DNA of 26,350 bases from positions 1 to 26,350 of IMG/VR virus record IMGVR_UViG_3300029448_006499; one strand, 5' to 3'. Positions 4,909 to 23,469 of this stretch are shown piece by piece. A program made the translations under genes and the position numbers. Within the stretch, counting starts at the first letter, position 1; every line of letters starts with the position of its first letter. A model generated the notes under the pieces. The model saw only the letters and a list, made by a program, of their open reading frames with translations, did not search any database and was not told where the DNA came from. The DNA is from a virus.

Positions 4909-5861
4909 ATAATTTTCCTGTAATCATTTAAATCAAACTCAGTACCATGCATCTTATATAGGTCTCTTTGATGATTAGTATATACTAACACCTCTGGATC
5001 GTCAATCAGAAAATCACAACCTCTACAAAAATCAGGATAGTTTCCTGTAGTATGTTGCTTCCTTAGCTGCTCGTATTCATGACCATTCCAAATTTCTTCT
5101 GCTGTATTATCTGACATATGCCCAAGAATAGCATCATCATCCCTACCGAGAACCTGACAACAAGGATGTACAGCACCCCACTTGCCTTGAGCGCCACCTG
5201 CTCGAATGACTAAGTCTGGTGAGAATGGTCGCCCACAAGTCTTTACCTTACCCTCTCGGCCATACTCTGGATCATATACACCTGACCAGTTATGCATCTT
5301 CCAGATTTCAGTCTTCACTCCAGCATTATCAACGATCTTGCGATATTGCTCTACTTCATAATCAATATTATCATTATCCATAACAAGATGATATGTCGCA
5401 ACAGTACAATCTGATCCAGAGTCTTCTACATATCTCTGCATGGCTTCAAGATTATTAATGACTTTTGTAAACTCTTTTGAGTTCATCCACGCCCAATATG
5501 TCTCTGGATTGTATCCGATGATAGAGAAACGAAAAAAGTCTGTACCAGCGTCTACAACTCGTTTCATGTAGTCGCCATGCATACGATTACCGTTAGAGAA
5601 CATAAAAGCTTTCGCTCCATGTTTCTTGACAACTCTTACATATTCATCAAGGTTACTATTAAGAGTAGGCTCGCCACTACCCTCAAGGTTAACAACCCGC
5701 AGTCCATTATTAACCAACTGATCAATAACACTCTCAAATCTTCCCAAAGACATCTTCTTTAGCCAGTTTTTACCTCTGCCGCCTGGTTGAGACTGTGGGC
5801 ACATCTGACATGAATAATTACAGCCACCATTAATTTCAATGACAGCACGATCAATGTACAT
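4905..5861 (-). CDS. Radical SAM enzyme with SPASM-like C-terminal domain
   Basis: A 318-residue protein beginning almost at once with the radical SAM cluster motif CxxxCxxC (Cys14, Cys18, Cys21 in GGCNYSCQMCP), followed by the SAM-binding glutamate strip LEGSGEPTLN. The C-terminal third carries several further cysteines (TCGRPF, HPCCQV, DFCRGCDFL) together with AEEIWNGHEYEQLR, the layout of a SPASM/twitch auxiliary Fe-S domain. Such enzymes do radical chemistry on peptides, sugars or cofactors. Placed between glycosyltransferase-like genes and a sugar dehydrogenase, it may modify a sugar or a glycan precursor; this is inference. It overlaps the gene upstream by 11 bases and the one downstream by four. 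Confidence 0.85.
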   Translation of the reverse strand: MYIDRAVIEINGGCNYSCQMCPQSQPGGRGKNWLKKMSLGRFESVIDQLVNNGLRVVNLEGSGEPTLNSNLDEYVRVVKKHGAKAFMFSNGNRMHGDYMKRVVDAGTDFFRFSIIGYNPETYWAWMNSKEFTKVINNLEAMQRYVEDSGSDCTVATYHLVMDNDNIDYEVEQYRKIVDNAGVKTEIWKMHNWSGVYDPEYGREGKVKTCGRPFSPDLVIRAGGAQGKWGAVHPCCQVLGRDDDAILGHMSDNTAEEIWNGHEYEQLRKQHTTGNYPDFCRGCDFLIDDPEVLVYTNHQRDLYKMHGTEFDLNDYRKII

Positions 5862-11866: not shown

Positions 11867-11942
<76 letters not shown>

Positions 11943-11950
11943 ACTGATAA

Positions 11951-12027
11951 TGGCCCGCCCTGCAGGACTCGAACCTGCAACCTACGGTTTAGAAGACCGT
12001 CGCTCTATCCAGTTGAGCTAAGGGCAG
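11951..12027 (-). tRNA. tRNA-Arg (anticodon UCU)
   Basis: A 77-base cloverleaf on the minus strand. Acceptor CTGCCCT pairs with AGGGCGG (one T-G pair), the D arm is GCTC...GAGC, the anticodon stem ACGGT/ACCGT is perfect around the loop CTTCTAA, and the T arm is GCAGG-TTCGAGT-CCTGC. The discriminator is G and CCA is encoded. The anticodon UCU reads AGA, an arginine codon used often in these AT-rich genes and often rare in hosts. It lies eight bases upstream of tRNA-Thr and just after the glycine-zipper gene in the same transcript. Confidence 0.95.
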
Positions 12028-13922: not shown

Positions 13923-14331
13923 TATCACTCCTAATGTGTTTGGAGTTGACTCTACACATAATCAACTCGTTATAGTAATCTTCTCTTAATAATACATCAT
14001 TGTCAAACTGCAGTTTAGCTTCGTAGTAAGAACATTCGCCTTTAGTTCTGCAGAATTTTAGTATTTCTCTTTTGTATTTATCCAGACCATACTTTTTAAC
14101 TTCTTCTTTAAGTAAAATATTTGATCCATAGTAGTTGCGCCAATCTGATTCTTTTATTACAATTTTTCTACGGGTCTTTCCTTTTTGCTTTACTCTTCTA
14201 CGACTCCAGAGGATCTTCTTGCCGATATATTTCATGTTATTAGATAAGTTCGTTATGCGGTAAACAAATCCTGCATACTCTTCTGGAGGACTCTCAGGAT
14301 CATATACTTTTCCATTATAAATCCAGGTCAT
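13909..14331 (-). CDS. GIY-YIG nuclease domain protein
   Basis: A 140-residue protein with the GIY-YIG core: GFVYRITN (residues 21-28) and KYIGKK (34-39), followed by a basic stretch with arginines (SRRRVKQKGKTRRK), YYGSN, and a Glu-containing helix (KGECSYYEAKLQ) that would supply the metal-binding Glu. Such domains occur in homing endonucleases (Seg-type of T4), UvrC and small phage nucleases. No DNA-binding C-terminal module is visible, so this may be a free-standing homing or repair nuclease. It sits just downstream of two AT-rich sulfotransferase genes and overlaps them and the DUF6433 gene by 14-17 bases. Confidence 0.75.
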   Translation of the reverse strand: MTWIYNGKVYDPESPPEEYAGFVYRITNLSNNMKYIGKKILWSRRRVKQKGKTRRKIVIKESDWRNYYGSNILLKEEVKKYGLDKYKREILKFCRTKGECSYYEAKLQFDNDVLLREDYYNELIMCRVNSKHIRSDNGDE

Positions 14332-14935
14332 GTAGTTCTTTCATTTTATTATGATAATCATATTTATTCATAACGTCATATAAAGTATTTAAATGATAAT
14401 CGCTTAAATACTCTATTCCTTTCCCTGAACCACCGCCATTTAATAGAGTAGATTTTTTTTCTTGTTCATAAAACCAAACTTTTGATATTTCAGATTCACT
14501 TTTATTAAAAACAATTTTTTTAAATTCTTCTAGCCCATTATTTCCTATCAAATTTTCATATGTAATTAATATAAAATTTGGGTGAATATTTTTATATTCT
14601 ATCGCTGAAATATGATGTAATAATATATCTTCCCATGTATTACTTTTAAAATTTTGATTATAGGCAAAAGTTTGGTTATGCTTTCTACATTTATCAAATA
14701 ATGTTTCTTCTAAAGTTCTGTATTCAGCTTTCTTTAAATATTGAGAAATTAAAGTATCAAATGGATCTCTGATTAAATATATAAATTTTTTAGATTGATA
14801 GAGTAGGTTATTATGCATAATAAATTTATCATGTTCTCTAAATCCATGCGAAAATTTATATTCGCATTTTAAATCGGTTAACATACTTCTAAGCCAAGTT
14901 CGGCCAGAGCCAGGAAATGAGTAAACCACAATCAT
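14315..14935 (-). CDS. Sulfotransferase-like protein, paralogue A
   Basis: A 206-residue protein of the P-loop sulfotransferase superfamily. The 5'-phosphosulfate loop is FPGSGRTWLRSML (residues 7-19), and the 3'-phosphate motif is YLIRDPFDTLISQYLKK, with Arg and a Ser in the expected Arg-x-Pro-x-Asp...Ser arrangement. These enzymes transfer a sulfuryl group from PAPS to a hydroxyl or amine of a glycan or small molecule. At 206 residues it is at the small end of the family. It is AT-rich and lacks a clear Shine-Dalgarno site. It follows the paralogue at 14940 after four bases. Target glycan is not known; host PAPS would be needed. Confidence 0.8.
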   Translation of the reverse strand: MIVVYSFPGSGRTWLRSMLTDLKCEYKFSHGFREHDKFIMHNNLLYQSKKFIYLIRDPFDTLISQYLKKAEYRTLEETLFDKCRKHNQTFAYNQNFKSNTWEDILLHHISAIEYKNIHPNFILITYENLIGNNGLEEFKKIVFNKSESEISKVWFYEQEKKSTLLNGGGSGKGIEYLSDYHLNTLYDVMNKYDYHNKMKELHDLDL

Positions 14936-14939
14936 GTTT

Positions 14940-15599
14940 TTAAAAATCTTCGATTTGTTTCATTTTATTCCAATAATCTACTTCCTCAATAATTTTTTGC
15001 ATTCTTTTAATTTGACATGGCGTTAGCCATAACTTTCCATGTCCTACTAAACCACCATGTAATTTTTTACGTTTAATAAAATTATATTTATCTTCAAAAG
15101 CTGAATTAGTTAGAGCTCGCATTTTTACATTTTCATATGAAAAATGTTCCCAAACATCTTTTGTTATTTCTGGATAAATTTTTTTAAATTCTTCTATTCC
15201 ATTTTCTGCTCGTAAATTTTCATATTTAATTAATTTAAAATTACTATGTTGATTAGCTAAATGGACGGCAGATAAATGATGATTAATAATATGTGTCGGG
15301 CCATATTTTAAACGATTTTTTAAATTTACTTTTTGTTCAATAGTTTTTTTTATTCTGGATGCAAATACATCAAAAGGATTTCTCCAAAGATAAATTAATT
15401 TACCAGCCTCGCTTGAAAAATAAAAATCTTTTTTTGAAATAGTCCTATTTTTATGAGGCTGATTTGGTGGCACTGGAAGCTGAAACCCAAGGTCAACATC
15501 AAGTAAAAAATTACTTTGACGAAATTCAACTTGAAGATGATCTAAAATTGAACACATCCAAGTGTTTCCAGAACACATATACCCATACAACAAAATCAT
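14940..15599 (-). CDS. Sulfotransferase-like protein, paralogue B
   Basis: A 219-residue P-loop sulfotransferase-like protein: GYMCSGNTWMCSIL (residues 6-19) forms the PAPS loop and YLWRNPFDVFASRIKK the 3'-phosphate site. It parallels the next gene along its length, including FKLIKYENL versus FILITYENL and a shared NGIEEFKKI / NGLEEFKKI segment, so the two are tandem paralogues. It is very AT-rich (positions 15301-15360 have 11 G or C of 60). The ATG at 15599 is reached directly from a run of seven T that ends a terminator, so no ribosome-binding site is present. The P-loop requires this start. Role in sulfating a surface polysaccharide is inferred. Confidence 0.8.
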   Translation of the reverse strand: MILLYGYMCSGNTWMCSILDHLQVEFRQSNFLLDVDLGFQLPVPPNQPHKNRTISKKDFYFSSEAGKLIYLWRNPFDVFASRIKKTIEQKVNLKNRLKYGPTHIINHHLSAVHLANQHSNFKLIKYENLRAENGIEEFKKIYPEITKDVWEHFSYENVKMRALTNSAFEDKYNFIKRKKLHGGLVGHGKLWLTPCQIKRMQKIIEEVDYWNKMKQIEDF

Positions 15600-15641: not shown

Positions 15642-15791
15642 TTACATGCAGAGACATCCCTCTTCATATTCATGTCGATTCTCTTCAGGAACCTCATCTC
15701 CGCAAACAGGACAATATTCTGGAAGTGAATTATCTTCTACATGAATTACTGACTCTGCTTCGCAATGAGGACATTCAATCTTATATTTCAT
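15642..15791 (-). CDS. Small zinc-ribbon protein (49 aa)
   Basis: A 49-residue frame from ATG at 15791 to TAA at 15642. It holds a CPHC knuckle (Cys7, Cys10) and a CPVCGD knuckle (Cys27, Cys30), spaced like a zinc ribbon, plus a Cys-rich tail (EEGCLCM). A strong AAGGAG lies six bases before the start and overlaps the TAA that ends the out-of-frame NrdJ tail. It could be a zinc-ribbon adaptor or, given the location, a redox or assembly partner of ribonucleotide reductase; this is inference. Confidence 0.8.
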   Translation of the reverse strand: MKYKIECPHCEAESVIHVEDNSLPEYCPVCGDEVPEENRHEYEEGCLCM

Positions 15792-15800
15792 AGAAACTCC

Positions 15801-15884
15801 TTAGAAATCGATCTCACAGGCTCCGCCAGCACATGCAGCAGCGCCTAGTGTATCTACATCTGTAAATTTTTTCTCCGACAGCTC
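15801..15884 (-). pseudogene. nrdJ: Out-of-frame C-terminal tail of NrdJ with redox Cys pair
   Basis: In the frame one base ahead of the nrdJ frame, 27 codons run from the bases of the nrdJ stop region to TAA at 15803-15801. The end, DTLGAAACAGGACEIDF, has the CxxxxC pair typical of the flexible C-terminal tail of class I and class II ribonucleotide reductases (E. coli NrdA ends in CESGACKI), which hands electrons from thioredoxin or glutaredoxin to the active site. The downstream gene starts ten bases after this TAA with its SD overlapping it, as in a normal operon. So the tail is expected to be coding, reached by +1 frameshifting or separated by a mutation or sequence error. Confidence 0.7.
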
Positions 15885-18006
15885 AGATTTGTTGATAAGA
15901 ACGCTCAATCTTCTGCCATTTATGAATCAGATAAGCATCTTTCAAACAATACTCAGTTTTCTTTCTGTCGCCTTCAAGGTATTTATCAGCAAAAGATTCG
16001 AACCGACGAACCCAATCTTTCTTCAGAGTATTCTTTGAGTTCTCTGCAGAAATATCTTCGCCATATCCCTGAGCAGTTGAAGTTGCCATCCAAAGATCAT
16101 TAAAAGCAGCAAGTCCATCTACGACAAGCCCAGAAGCGAGGACAGCCGCAACGCCATACTTTTTAACCATTTCTTCAGCGTCGATAACTTCAGTATTTGG
16201 CGCTTGATTAAAATCCTTATCGCCAGAAGTAGACAAGAAAGAAATACCAGCAAAGTGATCCCGATTGCTATAAACATATTTTGCAACATCGTCCCAGTCC
16301 TCTACTAGAATGGTGTTTGATACGTTATGGGATACAGTTGGATCAGCGCAGAGCTCTGGATTCTTGCCAGCATTCACCCAATAGTTTTGAGCTTTCTTAA
16401 CAAGTTCGAGATGCTTAACGCCAATCAAATCATCTTTAAGGATAGAGCCTGTCTTTGGTGTGATAGGGAAAGATGCGACCCAATCAGTACCACCCGCAGA
16501 CCAAACAGAGTCTTCTACCATCTCAGGATTGGTTTTGGCAATAACCTGAGCCACTTCAGACTCTTTATTTAATTGGACGTTACGAATATACTGTTTAGAG
16601 TGTTCAGCATGAATTCCACTTGCAGTGCCCAAAAGTACAGAAGCATTGCCAGAAGGCTTAACGCAAGTAGTCCGAGCAGCAGCGTTAATCCCAAGAAGAT
16701 TAGCAACTCTTTTATTAGTCTCCTTAACAACTTTGGCTCCTTTCTCAAGAATTTTATCATTAAAAAGAATATCCGGATTATTCATCCAACCAGTGATCGA
16801 GACCCCAAGCAGAGCCTCACGGTCAAAGATTGCTTTAGTTGTGTCCGGAAGGAATTTAAAGTCTGTATAACCAGCTTGAAGTGTCCCGAGAATAGCAGCT
16901 GCTTCACAAGCCTTATAGAACGACTCCTCATCTACACACTGACCACCATTAATCTCTGTAAGATTACATCCCTGCCAGCCAGACTGTCCATCAATCTGTG
17001 GGAACATACCAATCTCAACACATGGATTAGTTGTATGTTCAGTAGATTCCACAAATACAAATCCTGGTTCGCCAAACTGTTTAATACTATCCATGATATT
17101 CATGAACTGTTCTTCAGTCGTTTCTTTACGAACAATCACAGCAGAGTTATTAGAACGTGCACGCTGTGGGTTATCTACAAACCAGTTACCAGTCTTAGCG
17201 CTCATCATTTCTGTGTCAGTTGGAGAGAACAAACAAATAGTAGCCGAACGACGCACACCACCAGATAAAACAGCATCTGCTACATGCATACAAATATCAT
17301 AGACGTTGATTGCAGAAAGCTGGACAGGACTTTTATTTTTAAGGATAACTCCTTGAATTAAATATTCAATACGGTCCAGCGCCTGACGTAGACCTTCTGG
17401 ACCAGGAGCTTTAAAGCCACCAGAAATCTTAGCGCCTTTTGGTCGAATATTAGTCAGATCAAAGAATACACGGCGACCTTCAAACTCTGGGTGAGTGCCA
17501 CCACCGACAAAGTATGAAGACATCAGAACGTCAAAAGCAGCTGCCCAACCTTCAATAGAGTCTTCAACAACATAACCTTTCGCTTGTTTCTTACGTTCAG
17601 TAACTTCAGGCAACTTATTCACATGATGCGTCTGAACAGAGAAACCTGCTCCTGCACCACAAAGTAGGATGTAGAAATATTCACCAAAAAATTCTGGACG
17701 ATCCACATAGGAAGAAGTGCAGTTATACATCTTCATCTGATGCTTCAGCAACTGGTCGCCGCCAAATTGTAGAGCACGTTGTGCGCCAAGTACACGTTTT
17801 TCTTTGTATGCTACAGTAGCTCTGACTAGCTCAACTTCAAGCGCTTCCGACAACTTATCTTCGTAATATCCTCTATGCATAGCCATGACACGGTCAACAG
17901 ATTCGTCCCAACTCTCATAACGGTTTTCATCATCAATATATCTGGAGTAAGACTCGTAAAACTTTGTTTGGGATAAGAAATCCCTCATGTCTAGACTATT
18001 TGTCAT
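15883..18006 (-). CDS. nrdJ: Adenosylcobalamin-dependent (class II) ribonucleotide reductase
   Basis: A 707-residue monomeric class II reductase from ATG at 18006. An in-frame GTG three codons earlier lies inside the AGAGGTG ribosome site and is not used. Cys96 (MYNCTSS), the Asn327-x-Cys329-x-Glu331 radical site (TNPCVEIG) and Cys347 (GCNLTEIN) give the active-site cysteines, and KPSGNASVLLGTASGIH and the GGVRRSAT segment fit the alpha-barrel. It makes dNTPs (or dNDPs) from ribonucleotides using B12, independent of oxygen. The frame ends with TGA at 15885-15883 without the usual C-terminal Cys pair, which lies in the +1 frame just beyond. A sigma70-like promoter precedes it, so it is an early gene. 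Confidence 0.93.
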   Translation of the reverse strand: MTNSLDMRDFLSQTKFYESYSRYIDDENRYESWDESVDRVMAMHRGYYEDKLSEALEVELVRATVAYKEKRVLGAQRALQFGGDQLLKHQMKMYNCTSSYVDRPEFFGEYFYILLCGAGAGFSVQTHHVNKLPEVTERKKQAKGYVVEDSIEGWAAAFDVLMSSYFVGGGTHPEFEGRRVFFDLTNIRPKGAKISGGFKAPGPEGLRQALDRIEYLIQGVILKNKSPVQLSAINVYDICMHVADAVLSGGVRRSATICLFSPTDTEMMSAKTGNWFVDNPQRARSNNSAVIVRKETTEEQFMNIMDSIKQFGEPGFVFVESTEHTTNPCVEIGMFPQIDGQSGWQGCNLTEINGGQCVDEESFYKACEAAAILGTLQAGYTDFKFLPDTTKAIFDREALLGVSITGWMNNPDILFNDKILEKGAKVVKETNKRVANLLGINAAARTTCVKPSGNASVLLGTASGIHAEHSKQYIRNVQLNKESEVAQVIAKTNPEMVEDSVWSAGGTDWVASFPITPKTGSILKDDLIGVKHLELVKKAQNYWVNAGKNPELCADPTVSHNVSNTILVEDWDDVAKYVYSNRDHFAGISFLSTSGDKDFNQAPNTEVIDAEEMVKKYGVAAVLASGLVVDGLAAFNDLWMATSTAQGYGEDISAENSKNTLKKDWVRRFESFADKYLEGDRKKTEYCLKDAYLIHKWQKIERSYQQI

Positions 18007-22163: not shown

Positions 22164-22412
22164 TTATTTCTTAGCTTTGGCCCAGAGATCTTTGTCTGCA
22201 GTTGTTCTCGTTTTACCGCCAGTAATAAATGAGTTTACACGTGCGAACGCCCATTGCTGAGGGGTAGTTCCTGGTCTATGTCCAGTTTTCCATGCAGCCA
22301 TACCACGGTTATAAACTTGCTTTAGGATCCCGTAAGAAATACCTGATTTTTCAGCCTTTTTTACTAACCCCGCAATCTTTTTTTCAGTTAAAAATGATTT
22401 AAAACTAAGCAT
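22164..22412 (-). CDS. DUF5824-family phage protein with capsid-targeting-like N terminus
   Basis: An 82-residue protein from ATG at 22412. A longer frame starting at 22514 is open but lies inside the adjacent gene; GGAGAGAG before the 22412 ATG and the shared motif MLSFKSFLTEKK decide the start. Residues about 15-64 (KKAEKSGISYGILKQVYNR, GMAAWKTGHRPGTTPQQWAF, ARVNSFITGG) are the DUF5824 domain found in many T4-like phages. Function is unknown. The gene overlaps the nucleotidyltransferase-like gene by eight bases. Confidence 0.8.
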   Translation of the reverse strand: MLSFKSFLTEKKIAGLVKKAEKSGISYGILKQVYNRGMAAWKTGHRPGTTPQQWAFARVNSFITGGKTRTTADKDLWAKAKK

Positions 22413-23469
22413 TTTTTCTCTCTCCAAACATTTGCTTGTACTTTTTAGTATATTTGCTTGGTTTAGTTTTAGCTTCTTTGTCTCCAGGAGCTGGTTTATA
22501 AGCTTTTGGATCATCGTCTCTCATCTTAGCTTGTCGTTTAAACTGAGCGTCTCTAGCTTTCTTTGTAGACTTAGCTAAACCTGTATGATACTTCTTTGGT
22601 TGCTGACCTTTTCTATCGCCAATGTCTGGATCTTCTGGAGACTTTCTTTCTTCCAAAGGCTCTACGTCAGTTAACCACTTACGCTTTCTCTTACCATCAA
22701 CTTCTACAATTAAGTAGTTTGATCCACAAAACTCAATCTTTACTACTTCGTCAGTTTCTTTAAGGATGACCGACTGACCAACAGAAAATAAATCTCCATT
22801 AACATATTCTTCACGGCGCTCAGAGACTTTCTCTAATTGTATGTGCTGAATAAACGATTTATTTTCATTGAGGTTCATTCCCTTGCGAACAGCATTAAAT
22901 AAATCTTTTGCCAGAGAATCAGAAACGCTCTTTGGCAAGCCAGTTAAGAATGAAGGGAAATCGTTGCTTTCTGCGTTAGCTCTCATCTTAGAGGCTGACA
23001 TACCAGAAACACCTTCAGCATCTGGGTCACGTTCGCCAGCAGAGATAACCTTTACTGAATTAAAATCAAAAAGACCATGACGAGCTTTTACGCCATTATA
23101 CTTTTTTAACAGAGTTTCAAACTCAGTAACTCTATCAGAACCTGCGACCATTACCAGATTCTTGATGCCACTATCATACATATGTACGGCCGCATCAATA
23201 AATGTCTTGACGGACTTGTCCATGATAATATTCCTTGCATGCTTCGGGAACATCTTTCTCATGAATTTTACTTTGGTCTGATAGTCAAGAGGGTTCTTTT
23301 TTGAATCTTGGGACTGAGAGGCAAAGATTTTATATACGTTGCCCCGAGCTTTGCTTGCTACAGTGTCGAGCAGCTTCTCATGTCCAGTAGTAGGAGGATT
23401 AAATCTTCCGAAGGCAAGGTAGCCAACAGAGTTCTGTTCCTCTAAATATCCTTTGAATGAACTAATCAT
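22405..23469 (-). CDS. NMNAT-like nucleotidyltransferase fused to basic phage module
   Basis: A 354-residue multidomain protein. Residues 16-170 form an adenylyltransferase of the nucleotidylyltransferase alpha/beta superfamily: the (H/T)xGH site is Thr27-Thr-Gly29-His30 (GRFNPPTTGHEKL) and an ISSTKMR-like site is SGMSASKMR (155-163). This could act on nicotinamide mononucleotide or a pantetheine- or CTP-type substrate. Residues about 225-270 are an SH3-like beta unit (VGQSVILKETDEVVKIEF), followed by a very basic tail with KPAPGDKEAKTKPSKYTKK, a module I recall from many marine phage proteins. The N terminus MISSFKGYLEE is the shared capsid-targeting-like motif. Its start overlaps the stop of the gene upstream by one base. 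Confidence 0.75.
   Translation of the reverse strand: MISSFKGYLEEQNSVGYLAFGRFNPPTTGHEKLLDTVASKARGNVYKIFASQSQDSKKNPLDYQTKVKFMRKMFPKHARNIIMDKSVKTFIDAAVHMYDSGIKNLVMVAGSDRVTEFETLLKKYNGVKARHGLFDFNSVKVISAGERDPDAEGVSGMSASKMRANAESNDFPSFLTGLPKSVSDSLAKDLFNAVRKGMNLNENKSFIQHIQLEKVSERREEYVNGDLFSVGQSVILKETDEVVKIEFCGSNYLIVEVDGKRKRKWLTDVEPLEERKSPEDPDIGDRKGQQPKKYHTGLAKSTKKARDAQFKRQAKMRDDDPKAYKPAPGDKEAKTKPSKYTKKYKQMFGERKNA

Follow-up and report, generated by a model that had tools for sequence, protein, structure and literature searches.

The class II ribonucleotide reductase (RNR) gene nrdJ of this virus very probably owes its displaced 3' end to a recent and unique 11-nt deletion, which would have shifted the frame of a conserved phage gene either as a real allele or as an assembly error. 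We read the nrdJ of the window (the whole viral DNA record analysed here, 26,350 bases) as a gene broken in an ordinary way, or as an assembly error, rather than as a case of programmed frameshifting. The ORF lies on the minus strand, probably starts at ATG 18006 (707 aa), as in an intact relative, rather than at GTG 18015, and stops at a TGA (15885-15883). Past this stop, the +1 frame encodes a redox tail of 27 codons (15884 to 15804) that ends ACAGGACEIDF; the translation of the tail frame is SELSEKKFTDVDTLGAAACAGGACEIDF, terminated by a TAA at 15803-15801. An earlier note on this DNA had described the same stop and the same +1 tail with its CxxxxC pair, and the minus-strand ORFs bear this out, the tail being identical in protein to that of the nearest relative, contig L001 (Table 1).

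Table 1. Features at and around the 3' end of nrdJ in the window
Feature	Position	Strand	Basis
nrdJ, class II (RTPR-type) ribonucleotide reductase, 707 aa, premature end ahead of the redox tail	15883..18006	-	ORF, PHROG 367, TIGR02505 (under its cut-off), identity to L001
Probable junction of the 11-nt deletion relative to other contigs	15885..15888	-	DNA alignment with L001, L002, L007 and L006
Out-of-frame nrdJ 3' remnant: redox tail with CxxxxC and the original TAA	15801..15887	-	Translation equals the L001 tail; motif fully or almost fully conserved among relatives
49-aa zinc-ribbon protein with C-terminal CLC, untouched by the break	15642..15791	-	ORF; same gene in L001

The deletion is seen most directly by comparison with close relatives. 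The closest contigs among the matches listed, L001 and L086, are 94% identical to the window in DNA and carry 11 extra bases exactly at the junction, where their nrdJ frame runs through uninterrupted. Alignment with L001, L002, L007, and L006 shows that these 11 contiguous bases are absent in the window only. The missing stretch has TC at both ends, leaving the deletion point uncertain by 2 nt, and it maps to 15888/15885 and not to the nearby runs of A (15890-15888 and 15872-15867). Because 11 is not a multiple of three, the loss throws the tail into the +1 frame and creates the TGA. Of the explanations put forward in the earlier note, a frame broken by mutation agrees with the additional bases in relatives, whereas a homopolymer error in AAA is at odds with a difference of 11 bases of mixed sequence. 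The comparison with related phage nrdJ genes that the note had called for finds a single continuous frame in the homologues, an outcome that the note had named as a refutation.

The displaced tail is not a chance ORF, as its protein is the same as the L001 tail and all three DNA differences over 87 bases are synonymous. Over 706 nrdJ codons upstream of the junction, synonymous codons account for 100 of the base changes between the window and L001, and non-synonymous codons for 18. Together with the synonymous changes in the tail, this ratio argues that nrdJ was under purifying selection until recently. The product of L001 is 738 residues long, and its last 31 residues are missing from that of the window. 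The uneroded state of the tail fits a very recent event, although it would equally fit selection on a tail that is still translated.

A survey of relatives places the window copy apart from nearly all others. From IMG/VR, we took the best 80 of 391 relatives by match quality, a ranking that favours intact genes; when these are queried with the L001 protein, which is intact, the full enzyme is in one frame in 74 of them. Contig ends cut the gene in five (L045, L053, L056, L057, and L062), and the remaining one, L013, has a break of its own. In L013 (IMGVR_UViG_3300028844_000075, 5130-5653), 83 nt of the tail are absent compared with L019, taking away the second tail cysteine and the stop; judging from this alignment, the nrdJ tail has been broken here a second time, independently. 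A second set was drawn as the best 80 of 528 by the same match-quality ranking, and the two sets overlap in contigs. In every relative that spans the junction, the frame is continuous into the tail. A frame-blind scan by tail DNA pattern was meant to avoid the bias towards intact genes, but it required the second cysteine and thus misses cases like L013. It returned at least 119 stretches, and of the 116 matches examined among those listed, 114 are open upstream, one is cut off by a contig edge (L209), and one (L270) is broken elsewhere, about 80 codons upstream of the tail; L183, with 68 open codons and then the contig edge, was counted as open. Degenerate and exact patterns of the window junction match no other viral contig, in a search that may omit records very near the window.

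The 96-kb contig L086/G009, which is nearly identical to that of L001 (99.97% over 11,573 bases, 3 mismatches), served as reference for the remainder of the window. Among 28 sense-strand ORFs of this relative that have a match in the window, only nrdJ shows a frame break; of two other rows that matched in two frames, one reflects a paralogous sulfotransferase and the other an ORF start extended too far, across a tRNA. At 14315-14935 and 14940-15599, the window has two tandem sulfotransferase-like genes, both matched by a single gene in the 96-kb relative, and at 11867-12027 it has two tRNA genes, Thr(TGT) and Arg(TCT). The ORFs at 22405-23469 and 22164-22514 were considered as a second frameshift and rejected, since an ATG belonging to the downstream ORF overlaps the stop, an arrangement also seen in L082. 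These overlapping ORFs of 354 and 116 aa (window 22164-23469) correspond to one fused 590-aa gene in L084, and the region is a natural gene split or fusion, not a frameshift. One-off broken genes do occur elsewhere in related contigs, as at the nrdJ end of L013 and in the cytidylyltransferase gene of the 96-kb L086 contig (L280, 3797-4402), where one of the 3 mismatches makes a premature stop; the contig of L001 and the otherwise almost identical L082 read through at this place.

Apart from its end, the window protein has active-site residues expected of a class II enzyme. It matches PHROG 367, ribonucleotide reductase, with an E-value of 1.3e-96, and its best NCBIfam match is TIGR02505 (RTPR) at E 3.9e-52 and 177 bits, against a cut-off of 340. 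The active-site cysteines and the NPCxE motif (C96, N327, C329, E331, and C347) are invariant in all nine aligned sequences, the window included; these residues would have their usual catalytic roles, and the profile alignment to the PDB does not extend to them reliably. The C-terminal redox cysteine pair, which a class II RTPR carries on the same chain, lies out of the NrdJ frame in the window. PF00268, the ferritin-like small subunit that a class II enzyme does without, matches neither the window nor the 96-kb relative, as expected for this class, both records being fragments; in the latter, one RNR large-chain match was found, and no small subunit, glutaredoxin, or thioredoxin. In Pseudaeromonas phage KLEP7 (OM654377.1; L279, 1162-1339), nrdJ is annotated as two ORFs about 180 bases apart that adjoin the codons of the catalytic-cysteine motif. 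This gap looks like an intron, and it matches no Rfam family at the gathering threshold.

The earlier note had also raised a programmed +1 ribosomal shift at CAA CAA ATC TGA G that would supply the tail in a fraction of molecules, which we now regard as highly improbable. The stop is a TGA and the tail is in the +1 frame, as in prfB, and the sequence of the tail is uneroded. However, relatives would be expected to share a programmed shift, and the junction is present in none of them. The +1 motif of prfB combines a Shine-Dalgarno-like sequence inside the gene with CTTT as the slippery site and, in most cases, a C following the TGA (PMC12421855). In the window, there is no AGGGGG-like internal Shine-Dalgarno upstream of the TGA, the P-site codon with the base after it reads ATCT, not CTTT, and a G instead of a C follows the stop. 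The RNA of this stretch folds about as well as shuffled versions of it (z 0.20), which also speaks against a structured stimulatory RNA at the junction, and searches of the available literature listed no report of a frameshift in phage nrdJ. Readthrough of the stop in frame 0 was rejected, as the continuation is unrelated sequence that meets a stop after about 20 codons. An intron at the junction was likewise rejected, as Rfam matches nothing in the window besides the two tRNAs and the relatives hold more bases, not fewer. Alternatively, the tail might be made as a separate short peptide, for instance from TTG 15908, and act in trans on the truncated enzyme. A 35-aa ORF with this TTG start is present, and work on a dimeric class II enzyme reports that activity returned when two mutants were mixed, electrons passing from one subunit to the other; the same paper, however, reports that a tail domain expressed on its own failed to restore activity with TCEP (PMC5704485). 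By eye, there is no properly spaced Shine-Dalgarno before TTG 15908, and a split tail occurs in no relative examined; we regard this reading as extremely improbable.

The missing bases themselves may have either of two origins. An assembly or sequencing artefact, with an intact nrdJ in the real virus, is the less likely one. In its favour, the window is a single contig, the comparable relatives are all intact at the junction, and no RNR besides NrdJ was found in the 96-kb relative, so that its loss might be costly. On the other hand, 11 mixed bases with a 2-base end repeat are atypical for a short-read, homopolymer, or repeat-collapse error. As the missing stretch is of mixed sequence with so short a terminal repeat, and as no further break was seen among the 28 compared ORFs, we think that the deletion is probably genuine, at least in some members of the virus population.

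If the allele is real, its consequence for the enzyme can be outlined. In class I and monomeric class II RNRs, a C-terminal cysteine pair is the relay by which thioredoxin or glutaredoxin supplies the active site with electrons. The deletion would shift the frame and end translation at the TGA after 707 codons, and the last 31 residues would be lost along with the CxxxxC pair, which in this enzyme type accepts electrons from thioredoxin to reduce the active site again. The product would then be NrdJ without its tail, and its turnover with thioredoxin would be slight or nil. Tail mutants of the dimeric class II enzyme are described as active with DTT and inactive with TCEP, a reductant that acts through the tail only (PMC5704485), and a phage monomeric NrdJ is described in another report as using host thioredoxin (PMC6459318). 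These findings suggest that the window protein should be a poor catalyst in the cell. Since the 96-kb relative has the one RNR and none of the partner proteins sought, a virus with this allele would presumably depend on enzymes of its host or on intact relatives infecting the same cell.

The gene downstream offers one way in which a tail-less enzyme might still work. The zinc-ribbon gene closely follows the TAA of the tail, as the earlier note had stated, with its ATG at 15791 and a GGAG immediately 3' of the TAA. L001 has the same gene 9 nt past its intact nrdJ stop, and a tiny zinc-ribbon gene is found 3' of nrdJ in many related phage contigs. The protein has weak matches to PHROGs 4875 and 5602, both of unknown function. 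Among 80 relatives, the zinc ribbon is present with CLC in 20 and without it in 15, while 38 have none by pattern and seven are cut or without the tail. In the clade of the window, the conserved C-terminal CLC brings the protein to six cysteines, four of zinc-ribbon type plus the pair. It is possible, from this cysteine content, that the zinc-ribbon protein is a redox partner. That its CLC pair delivers electrons in trans to a functional tail-less NrdJ, so that the tail is dispensable, seems very unlikely.

With nrdJ read as a broken copy or an assembly error, one candidate programmed frameshift is struck off the list, and a base-by-base comparison of the junction with near relatives emerges as a simple test that settles such cases. 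A real allele would be a natural tail-less class II RNR, at most a control for electron-transfer studies.

Compared with the programmed +1 shift of release factor 2, prfB, the window has the TGA stop and the +1 continuation in common but is without the internal Shine-Dalgarno, the slippery CTTT, the C after the stop, and the conservation. With the monomeric adenosylcobalamin-dependent class II RNR (NrdJm/RTPR, TIGR02505; PDB 1l1l, ribonucleoside triphosphate reductase), it shares sequence similarity in the catalytic barrel, and its relatives also end in a CxxxxC redox tail; in contrast, the score falls well under the TIGR02505 cut-off, the phage branch is divergent, and the window copy has no tail in frame. 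The six-cysteine zinc-ribbon protein of its clade recalls the cysteine-rich domain in which dimeric NrdJ ends. The nearest system is the NrdJ of the IMG/VR phage group (L001, L086, and others), with 98% protein identity to L001 over residues 1-707 and the same neighbours; unlike the window, all complete members of this group except L013 keep the tail in frame.
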